64,000 nucleotides of DNA, taken from positions 868,001-932,000 of the forward strand of contig NZ_SCNG01000001.1 of NCBI RefSeq assembly GCF_005503555.1. Reading direction: 5' to 3'. Shown in pieces: positions 55,589 through 56,722 of the stretch. This stretch comes from Rudaea sp. 3F27F6. Lineage in GTDB: Bacteria > Pseudomonadota > Gammaproteobacteria > Xanthomonadales > Rhodanobacteraceae. The first letter of the stretch is position 1. Every line of letters begins with the position of its first letter. The notes beneath the pieces are model-generated. The model was given only the letters and a program-made list of their open reading frames with translations, had not been told where the DNA came from and searched no databases. A program made the position numbers and the translations under genes.

Positions 55589-56011
55589 ATGCCTCGCGCC
55601 GACTTTTATCTCATCGCCAAGCCGCGCTTCCGTGACGATCCGTTGCTGCTCGTCTGCGAACTTGCCAAGCGCGCGTTCGAGTCGGGCCAGCCGACCCTGA
55701 TCCTCGCACGCTCGGCCGACCAGGCCGACGCGCTCGACGAGAAACTCTGGGAATTCGACGAACAGGCTTTCGTCCCGCACCAGATCGCCGGCGACGATGA
55801 CGACGCCATCACGCCCGTGCTGATCGCAGCACCCGGCATCGCCACCGCCGACCGCAGCCTCGTCATCAACCTGCGCGACGAATGCGCACCGGGCCTGTTC
55901 GAACGCGTCCTCGAAGTCGTGCCCGCCGACGAAGCAGAACGCCTCGGATCGCGCGAGCGCTGGAAAACCTACAAGGCGGCGGGGTTTGAGGTGAACAAGC
56001 ACGACATGTGA
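55589..56011 (+). CDS. holC: DNA polymerase III chi subunit
   Basis: 140 residues from ATG 55589, the family length; the upstream ATG at 55505 lies in the repeat. Text such as MPRADFYLIAKPRF, LACELAKRA-like VCELAKRAFESGQPTLILA, and DEKLWEFDEQAFVPH matches HolC, which links the clamp loader to SSB. pepA-holC is the usual order. In relatives valS normally follows, but here a repeat element and a prophage module follow instead. Confidence 0.9.
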   Translation: MPRADFYLIAKPRFRDDPLLLVCELAKRAFESGQPTLILARSADQADALDEKLWEFDEQAFVPHQIAGDDDDAITPVLIAAPGIATADRSLVINLRDECAPGLFERVLEVVPADEAERLGSRERWKTYKAAGFEVNKHDM

Positions 56012-56049
56012 CGGGGGCTGCGCTTTGCTTTCGTGTAGGTTCAAGAGCT

Positions 56050-56602
56050 AGAGCTTCCACTCGCCCTGCGGGCGAGCGGCTTACTTTCTCTGCTCGTGCA
56101 GAGAAAGTAAGCAAAGAGACACGCCCCAGAACATTGCGCCCTTCGGGCTCCTGCCCGAAGGGTCCGCGTCAGCGGCCGGGTTCCGCTAATTGCACATCCC
56201 TGTGCAATAGCGGAATCGGCGCGATCCATCGCGCCGACCCTAGCGGGCCTTTTCGTCCGCTGCCGCCGCAATGTAATGGGGACCCGGAAGAGCCGGAGCA
56301 GCGCGCATCCTGCGCGCCCAAGCAACAGCCGCCTTCGTAGGTACGGCCCTTGATCTGTCTTTTGATCTCGGGTCCCCGTCAGCCGCGGCGAGGGCATGAC
56401 GGATTCGCCCGCTAGGGTCGCGCGCAGGATGCGCGCGAGTTCGCGAATGGACACGGATGTCCATCGAGCGAACCCCGGCATGACCTCGCGAACTCGCAGC
56501 GAAGCTGCGAGCGCGGCTCCCGGGGTGTGTTCTCTTTGGTTACTTTCTCTTGCACAAGCAAGAGAAAGTGACCCGCTCGTCCGCAGGACGAGTGGAAGCT
56601 CT
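56050..56602. repeat. Highly structured ~553-bp intergenic element with ~70-bp terminal inverted repeats
   Basis: The left end 56050-56119 and the right end 56531-56602 are imperfect inverted copies, beginning AGAGCTTCCACTCG and ending GCAAAGAGA / CCAAAGAGA. Each end holds two hairpins, CTCGCCC-TGC-GGGCGAG and a TTACTTTCTCTGC stem on the left, CTCGTCC-TGC-GGACGAG and a CTTTCTCTTGC stem on the right. Inside are further perfect or near-perfect stems at 56139-56162, 56181-56215, 56217-56236, 56439-56473 and 56493-56511. Long-range inverted pairs are 56237-56248/56407-56418, 56278-56286/56369-56377 and 56301-56317/56420-56436. The open frames across it read like translated hairpins and have no credible starts. 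It may be a non-autonomous repeat or a structured RNA; nothing in it encodes a transposase. Confidence 0.85.
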
Positions 56603-56685
56603 GCTCCTAAAGCACAAAAGAACCAAAGCTGATGCGGCGCGCGATAACTGCGGCCGGAATTGCTTGATAACTGCATCGTCCAAAG

Positions 56686-56722
56686 TTTTCGCCATGCAAA
56701 ACAAAATGCCGCATGGCGAAAA
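56686..56722. repeat. Perfect 12-bp hairpin beside the prophage methylase gene
   Basis: TTTTCGCCATGC and GCATGGCGAAAA are exact inverted copies around a 13-base loop. It starts 17 bases after the stop of the methylase gene and lies near the outer border of the prophage module. No strong T-run follows on the minus strand, so it is either an unusual terminator or a protein-binding/junction site. Confidence 0.6.

Follow-up and report, generated by a model that had tools for sequence, protein, structure and literature searches.

A repeated inverted pair of ~200-nt structured arms in a Rudaea genome: a possible RNA module of mRNA 3' ends

What is the hairpin-rich stretch at 56050-56602 of the window, flanked by holC (which ends at 56011 and was identified as HolC by Pfam) on one side and a prophage on the other? 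The window is the whole 64-kb stretch of DNA analysed here, C8:868001-932000 in a 5.7-Mb genome of Rudaea (Xanthomonadales, the order in which the initial annotation proposed to search), and positions are given in it unless a contig is named. The initial annotation described terminal inverted repeats of ~70 bp, at least five local stems and three long-range inverted pairs, and all of these were recovered by an inverted-repeat search. The terminal repeat pairs 56050-56091 with 56561-56602 (42 nt, 90%) and is continued at 56100-56119/56531-56550 (20 nt, 95%). The long-range pairs are 56235-56257/56398-56420, 56301-56317/56420-56436, and 56124-56138/56267-56281. Local stems occupy 56060-56076, 56079-56112, 56139-56162, 56181-56215, 56216-56237, and 56301-56317 in the left part and centre, and 56418-56438, 56439-56473, 56493-56511, 56538-56573, and 56576-56592 in the right part. 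The minimum free energy of the element is -369 kcal/mol, compared with -230.5 (sd 6.3) in 100 dinucleotide shuffles (z -21.9); the single strand folds much more stably than its shuffles.

No Rfam family reached its gathering score anywhere in the 64-kb window, the element included; weaker matches, among them RsmY at E 0.41, are at chance level, and a known RNA family was rejected as an identification. Inside the element no sigma-70-like promoter scored above chance, and a terminator scan of 55950-56700 gave one site where 1.0 was expected.

The features are as follows, with a strand where one is assigned. The GGA strand is the one on which the hairpin loops read GGA; R1 is a covariance model built from 19 arms, and the stem test is that on 28 full copies, both taken up below.

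56050..56602, no strand: full element, an inverted pair of two arms plus a centre; one of 28 full copies, with 83-100% identity to it
56060..56076, no strand: left outer hairpin B; stem-test helix 1
56079..56112, no strand: left S1 hairpin (= C), GCTTACTTTCTCTGC-TCGT-GCAGAGAAAGTAAGC; inverted repeat, stem-test helix 2
56083..56284, minus strand (GGA-loop strand, proposed RNA): left arm; R1 match on plus, C8:924083-924284, 195.2 bits
56113..56119, no strand: left linker AAAGAGA, mirror of the S1 purine strand by the mirror test, proposed third strand
56120..56123, no strand: left S2 partner CACG, complementing loop CGTG at 56095-56098 (putative pseudoknot; complementarity test)
56124..56281, no strand: left multibranch domain, closed by P1 (56124-56138/56267-56281), with P3 at 56170-56175/56257-56262; helices 2, 3, and 6 of the arm fold
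56139..56162, no strand: left hairpin D, TCC loop (GGA on minus); inverted repeat, stem-test helix 3
56181..56215, no strand: left hairpin E, TCC loop (GGA on minus); stem-test helix 4
56216..56237, no strand: left hairpin F, ATCCAT loop (AUGGAU on minus); inverted repeat, stem-test helix 5
56285..56370, no strand: centre between the arms, with hairpin H at 56301-56317; site of a passenger gene in some relatives
56371..56569, plus strand (GGA-loop strand): right arm; R1 match on minus, C8:924371-924569, 202.5 bits
56418..56438, plus strand: right hairpin F, CAGGAUG loop; stem-test helix 7
56439..56473, plus strand: right hairpin E, with ACACGGAUGU at 56451-56460; stem-test helices 8 and 9
56493..56511, plus strand: right hairpin D; stem-test helix 10
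56526..56529, plus strand: right S2 strand TGTG, complementing CACA at 56553-56556 (putative pseudoknot; complementarity test)
56530..56537, plus strand: right third strand TTCTCTTT, parallel to purine strand AAGAGAAA at 56560-56567; proposed U.A-U and C+.G-C triples
56538..56573, plus strand: right S1 hairpin, GGTTACTTTCTCTTGC-ACAA-GCAAGAGAAAGTGACC; inverted repeat, stem-test helix 11
56576..56592, no strand: right outer hairpin B; stem-test helix 12
56624..56629, no strand: 6-bp duplication CAAAGC at the prophage junction, belonging to the prophage and not to the element

From the outside toward the centre, each arm consists of hairpin B, the S1 hairpin (C), a purine linker, CCCC, the P1 domain, and GGGG. 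P1 encloses hairpin D and P3; within P3 lie hairpins E and F, together with a small CCC..GGG hairpin.

The genome holds at least 28 full-length copies, the window copy included, with 83-100% identity to it (40 of 110 candidate places were scored and 40 loci taken, 28 of them full-length). Single arms and pairs with other centres also occur. With R1, 74 arms were found in the genome when 150 of 8,695 candidates were scored, making up 31 inverted pairs and 12 singles; the spacing within pairs is 74-163 bases, except for one pair at 676. The repeating unit is the ~200-nt arm, present here as an inverted pair, and not the 553-bp whole. The ~553-bp extent first assigned to the element has to be revised on this count and also at its right end, since the other 27 aligned copies run on past the equivalent of 56602 into a module like AAAGCAAAGTC[AG]CTGGAT..CCCGC..GCGGGAATGACGAGC. 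In the window copy this right flank is cut at 56629/56630 by the ~41.9-kb prophage (C8:924630-966563), and the missing part was found beyond the far prophage end, resuming at C8:966564. The prophage itself, from window position 56630 to C8:966563, starts within the element's right flank and has TG..CA ends; by these ends and a 591-aa gene at C8:954912 it is Mu-like, and its one profile-tested gene is a D12 methyltransferase.

The fold of the arm (a hairpin, a purine linker, then a stem around three hairpins) is alike in every ~200-nt arm. Among 25 arms from seven genomes in three genera, two in Rudaea's family and one in another family of the order, 96.4% of cells are paired, both sides change in 31 of 48 pairs, and covariation is 0.473, against 0.182 in shuffled alignments and at most 0.116 with partners slid; here the structure was taken by RNAalifold from the same sequence-based (MAFFT) alignment, which favours it over the slid versions. 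Much of this covariation comes from the long stems P1 and P3. Further pair types show no excess (54 against 51.7 shuffled). For the local stems of the 28 full copies, with a structure drawn from the window copy that is likewise favoured over slid versions, covariation is 0.126, compared with 0.050 after shuffling; further pair types (37, and 39.9 in shuffles) are not in excess here either. An initial doubt, that the stems might be unconserved or the copy unique and decaying, is settled by these results, since the stems are conserved and there are many copies. The terminal repeats behave differently from the local stems. They are real, but their pairing on the 28 copies shows no covariation (0.077 against 0.079 shuffled, with 88.2% paired against 88.5%), and a long-hairpin or DDE-type function of the terminal inverted repeat was rejected on this ground.

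A more particular pattern is seen at the outer end of the arm. End motifs with an S1 hairpin were collected 637 times (some loci overlap), giving 147 distinct hairpins, 52 from the window's and other Rudaea genomes and 95 from further loci, a few of them Rudaea. In 144 of the 147 the purine linker is the mirror of the S1 purine strand across the whole overlap. The search motif required a purine-rich linker, not the position of a G within it. An inner G is present in 32 types, and in every one it lies equally far from the outer end in linker and hairpin strand, with four distances represented. Mean identity between linker and mirror is 0.986, compared with 0.769 for linkers shuffled among hairpins, none of 2000 shuffles reaching the observed value. 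The S1 loop also complements the bases after the linker: across 72 types the longest run averages 3.96, against 2.91, and none of 1000 shuffles reaches it, with a run of three or less in 27 of the 72. A mirror repeat is the product of neither direct nor inverted duplication, and it fits the requirements of base triples. Read on the GGA strand, a pyrimidine third strand runs parallel to the purine one, and the triples would be U.A-U and C+.G-C; according to Holder et al. (2015; PMC4666352), RNA can form pyrimidine-motif triplexes but not purine-motif ones. Together, mirror linker and loop complementarity are the signature of an H-type triple-helix pseudoknot, which would be telomerase-like if the GGA strand is RNA. 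As a physical structure, the triple helix is predicted from these sequence patterns.

Which strand matters is less easily read from base pairing. Scored on the non-GGA strand, the mismatches in S1 are A.C or C.A in 74 cases and G.T or T.G in three, and would be G.U on the GGA strand; however, 73 of the 74 fall at one base pair, so they represent few independent events. In the RNAalifold arm structure, which was itself predicted on the non-GGA strand, there are 48 G.T and 21 A.C on that strand, pointing against the GGA strand, and the consensus energy of the same structure is slightly better there (-38.6 versus -36.6). Internal hairpins give one G.T context versus four to seven A.C contexts, and an early mismatch count gave 16 G.T and 46 A.C, yet 10 versus 14 distinct contexts. 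Fold energies make the GGA strand more stable in 21 of 25 arms and in 71 of 76 of a larger set, the latter with 315 G.U versus 171, but this advantage is what base composition leads one to expect, and the argument was dropped for that reason: against dinucleotide shuffles, z is -6.71 for the non-GGA and -6.30 for the GGA strand.

Since pairing counts point both ways and energies favour neither strand, the choice of strand rests mainly on gene orientation (genes called by a codon-usage script). Where a single arm follows an upstream gene, the GGA strand is in sense in 11 of 12 cases in the window's genome; five further Rudaea genomes give 22 of 29, although this second figure overstates independence because several of these loci look orthologous. 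Combined, 33 of 41 are in sense and eight are not. For the relatives, 31 of 32 fetched loci were analysed, and two of these, a possible pair and an arm that had no gene upstream, do not count among the 29; 20 of their 22 sense arms begin 23-76 bp past the gene. The 28 full pairs lie between convergent (15) or codirectional (13) genes and never between divergent genes or inside a gene, against a background of 256 gaps of at least 30 bp in 464 kb, 33 of them convergent and 36 divergent. The window copy was counted as convergent, its right neighbour being a prophage gene. The orientation of the single arms suggests that the GGA strand is the one that matters; it would then be transcribed as RNA. 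The proposal that the element is a structured RNA thus gains from the covariation, from the covarying triple-helix and pseudoknot signature, and from the sense orientation after genes; the choice of the GGA strand is tentative. Short tandem repeats of GGGATTC are also found after genes, in two loci (L051 and L058) just before an arm, with about 40 further matches in the genome; they occur in other genomes of Rudaea as well.

Outside S1, the hairpins have a TCC loop on the non-GGA strand in 90 of 153 cases and a GGA loop in three, a one-sidedness that can stem from homology. Of the 76 distinct arms that supplied these hairpins, drawn from 150 that passed a length filter, 46 have at least one GGA-type loop and 30 have none; among the 150, GGA-type loops sit on 44 distinct stems. 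The commonest loops on the GGA strand are AUGGAU, AGGAU, and AGGGAU, the window copy having ACACGGAUGU at 56451-56460. CsrA/RsmA recognises GGA-type hairpin loops, and the genome has one CsrA gene. By analogy, the GGA loops may be CsrA/RsmA binding sites.

Relatives of the arm occur in various Beta- and Gammaproteobacteria. Of 299 genomes from the phylum, 27, among them the window's, have an R1 match, by a search with rough E-values and strict filters that lose weak matches; they fall within the same family and order, in further families of the class, and in a single family of a different class. Scanning named genomes with a pattern turned up 88 loci, and R1 run on 80 of these gave 141 matches at E<=0.01. 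The taxa of the 88 loci include Xanthomonas, Pseudoxanthomonas, Lysobacter, Rhodanobacter, Rudaea, Thioalkalivibrio, and Thiobacillus, and further Pseudomonas sp. N040, Mannheimia, and MAGs labelled Cystobacterineae and Syntrophaceae. Plasmid records matching the arm end are from Caballeronia, Burkholderia, Variovorax, Aeromonas, Pasteurella, Pseudoalteromonas, and Ilyobacter (Fusobacteriota). A stricter 16-base string was found in nine of 398 genomes. Where end motifs lie at most 4 kb apart (L118-L235, some overlapping), 35 pairs are convergent, three divergent, and four on the same strand.

In the Thiobacillus loci examined the interior of the arms differs. A small gene is enclosed by inverted arms in seven of 10 loci examined, from Thiobacillus or related Hydrogenophilales MAGs, and all of these genes are different: their families are HEPN_AbiU2, DUF3592, RDD, SHOCT, and DUF4279, and two have no Pfam match. 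The seven loci (L161, L171, L174, L188, L193, L196, and L201) look cassette-like, with a near-constant inner border GGTCAAAACCAGGGCGGTG.TGACT. In one Rudaea pair a COQ7 gene lies between the two arms (L047:2136-2846).

Several observations bear on mobility. No arm follows holC in any of 15 other genomes of the genus (by eye, over ~100-900 nt). Between two genes taken by eye for frr and uppS, an arm is present in the same orientation in the window's genome and in a second one (G002) and is truncated in a third (G008); among the 11 genomes besides the window's that are readable there, the spacer is filled in just these two, short and plain in six, and replaced by other genes in three. The suggestion of a multi-copy mobile repeat is borne out as to copy number (at least 28 full copies, 74 arms) and by the holC site that is empty elsewhere. 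No transposase, target duplication of the element's own, or clean ends were found, and for this reason the element is called a likely, rather than an established, non-autonomous mobile repeat. It does have terminal inverted repeats, as MITEs of the DDE type do. By eye, in part of the 28-copy alignment with 100-bp flanks, no target site duplication was seen, the flanks being repeats themselves. Transposase families are absent from the eight passenger genes, two of which have no Pfam match. A single Y1_Tnp (RAYT-like) gene was found in the genome, at C13:324627-324956 (L080); the 3.3-kb locus around it contains no perfect hairpin of eight or more pairs and none of the element's family. The idea of a RAYT-driven REP element was rejected, since this one gene has other flanks.

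The copies also appear to exchange parts. In a linkage analysis of the 28 copies with 122 variable columns, mean r2 is 0.47 within one hairpin, 0.163 up to 30 bp apart, and 0.036-0.047 between different hairpins more than 30 bp apart, where 0.037 is expected for unlinked sites. The type of a hairpin on the left shows no association with the type of its counterpart on the right (B/B2, p 1.0; C/C2, p 0.97). The simplest cause is short exchanges, about one hairpin long, among copies. Exchange must be incomplete, since six of 45 block pairs have p<0.05, two of them <0.01 (D-centre 0.002 and C-D2 0.008 are the lowest).

We tentatively read the element as an inverted pair of a ~200-nt structured-RNA module at mRNA 3' ends, with somewhat less than even confidence. 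From the centre outwards (right arm on plus, left arm on minus), each transcribed arm would present a multibranch domain displaying GGA loops and then an H-type pseudoknot with a pyrimidine-motif triple helix (U.A-U, C+.G-C). The transcript of a neighbouring gene would run into the arm and so gain a structured tail, whose GGA loops would bind CsrA/RsmA, with all copies together forming a dispersed sponge, and whose end would be shielded by the triple helix; CsrA binding and end protection are, we infer, its two likeliest activities. Copies would spread to new places past stop codons and would swap single hairpins. What the data show are the number of copies, the covarying fold, the covariation of mirror and pseudoknot, GGA loops on many different stems, the placement and orientation of arms past genes, and site polymorphism; the choice of strand, transcription, the physical triple helix, CsrA binding, RNA protection, mobility, and the manner of spreading are proposals built on these. 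A much broader version, which we think unlikely as a whole, is that such transposable mRNA-tail modules, with telomerase-like triple-helix pseudoknots and CsrA-binding hairpins, are widespread in Proteobacteria (with an end motif on an Ilyobacter plasmid), that dozens of insertions after unrelated genes form a distributed CsrA sponge and mRNA stabiliser, and that inverted pairs may give passenger genes such tails.

The chief competitor is a DNA element of the BoxC/PIT kind, a substantial possibility that we rate a little below the RNA module. The arms would then act as folded single-stranded DNA (intrastrand triplex and hairpins) in replication, recombination, or transposition by some enzyme, RNA being incidental. 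The same three-block logic is described in PMC4666352 for class II intrastrand triplex repeats, which can form inverted pairs in Proteobacteria; corrected for composition, fold energy gives no preference for a strand, pair counts are divided, sites are polymorphic after holC and between frr and uppS, and passenger genes are enclosed by inverted arms. Against a DNA element stand the sense orientation of single arms, the absence of full pairs between divergent genes, the lack of covariation in the terminal inverted repeat, and the flanks of the genome's single Y1_Tnp gene, which do not have these hairpins.

Two other explanations carry less weight. The element could be a functionless repeat in which quasipalindrome template switching keeps the stems perfect, while short-tract gene conversion keeps the copies alike. 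The linkage data are much as this would have it (r2 of 0.47 within a hairpin and 0.036-0.047 beyond, with B/B2 and C/C2 independent at p 1.0 and 0.97), but template switching within hairpins leaves unexplained both the mirror repeats and the covariation of stems that lie ~90-140 nt apart and enclose other hairpins (helices 3 and 6 of the arm fold); moreover, GGA-type loops are kept on 44 different stems, and six of 45 block pairs at p<0.05 show exchange to be incomplete. We consider neutrality improbable. Least probable of all, and very improbable, are bidirectional terminators between convergent genes: 15 of 28 full pairs are so placed and none is divergent, but the one predicted site in 55950-56700 equals the 1.0 expected, single arms also occur between codirectional genes, for instance past frr, and the triple-helix signature goes beyond what a terminator needs.

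If the RNA module is real, bacterial intergenic repeats would include RNA triple helices of the telomerase type, and the old puzzle of what BoxC/PIT-like repeats do could be tested by looking at the 3' ends of mRNAs. Hairpins assort almost freely between the copies of a single genome, an unusual instance of short-tract exchange that can be measured. The passenger genes may reflect a route by which single genes move, for which no enzyme was found.

No published account or function of this arm family was found in the open-licence literature, and the matches listed in a literature search by sequence string were all unrelated by title. Among known systems, the element shares palindromes, intergenic position, many copies, and mosaic modules with REP/BIME sequences and RAYT-associated REPINs, but its arms are ~200 nt long compared with units of 20-40 bp, and the Y1_Tnp gene here is without such hairpins. 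With the neisserial intergenic mosaic elements (NIMEs) it shares the nature of a mosaic intergenic repeat. The outer flank hairpin ATTCCCGC..GCGGGAAT resembles neisserial dRS3; NIMEs are not known to contain the core arm fold. Outer hairpins TCGTCATTCCCGCG..GCGGGAATCCAG, likewise similar to dRS3, flank most full copies (for instance L020, L034, and L043) and are also found farther out without the core.

CsrA/RsmA-binding RNAs such as CsrB, RsmY, and TwoAYGGAY have several hairpins with AnGGA loops. The element would share such loops if its GGA strand is the one transcribed; it is below Rfam thresholds (RsmY E 0.41). Telomerase RNA and the ENE contain an H-type pseudoknot in which a pyrimidine third strand runs parallel to a purine strand. 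The pseudoknot proposed here is of the same type; a sequence relation is not claimed, the motif having been derived from covariation alone.

The nearest published kind is the BoxC/PIT/TM_ECO group of triplex repeats (Holder et al., 2015; PMC4666352). As described there, these carry on a single strand one pyrimidine and two purine blocks, the last of which is mirror-like, are intergenic with some in inverted pairs, and occur in Proteobacteria, where they are linked with genome instability and are otherwise without an assigned function. The TM_ECO consensus, CCCTCnCCC..GGGnGAGGG..GGGnGAGGG, is G/C-rich and 34-37 nt long; the element does not match it, and the blocks of the window copy are A-rich. 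In a Variovorax plasmid (L238), a BoxC/TM_ECO-like triplex motif, CCCTCTCCC..GGGAGAGGGTTAGGGTGAGGG, lies at the centre of an element with the same end motif as ours. What is shared with BoxC/PIT, by sequence, is the Y-R-R arrangement of blocks fit for an intrastrand triplex, seen here in the mirror linkers of 144 of 147 hairpins; what the Rudaea element alone has, as far as the others are described there, is a covarying loop pseudoknot at the end of a conserved 200-nt arm.
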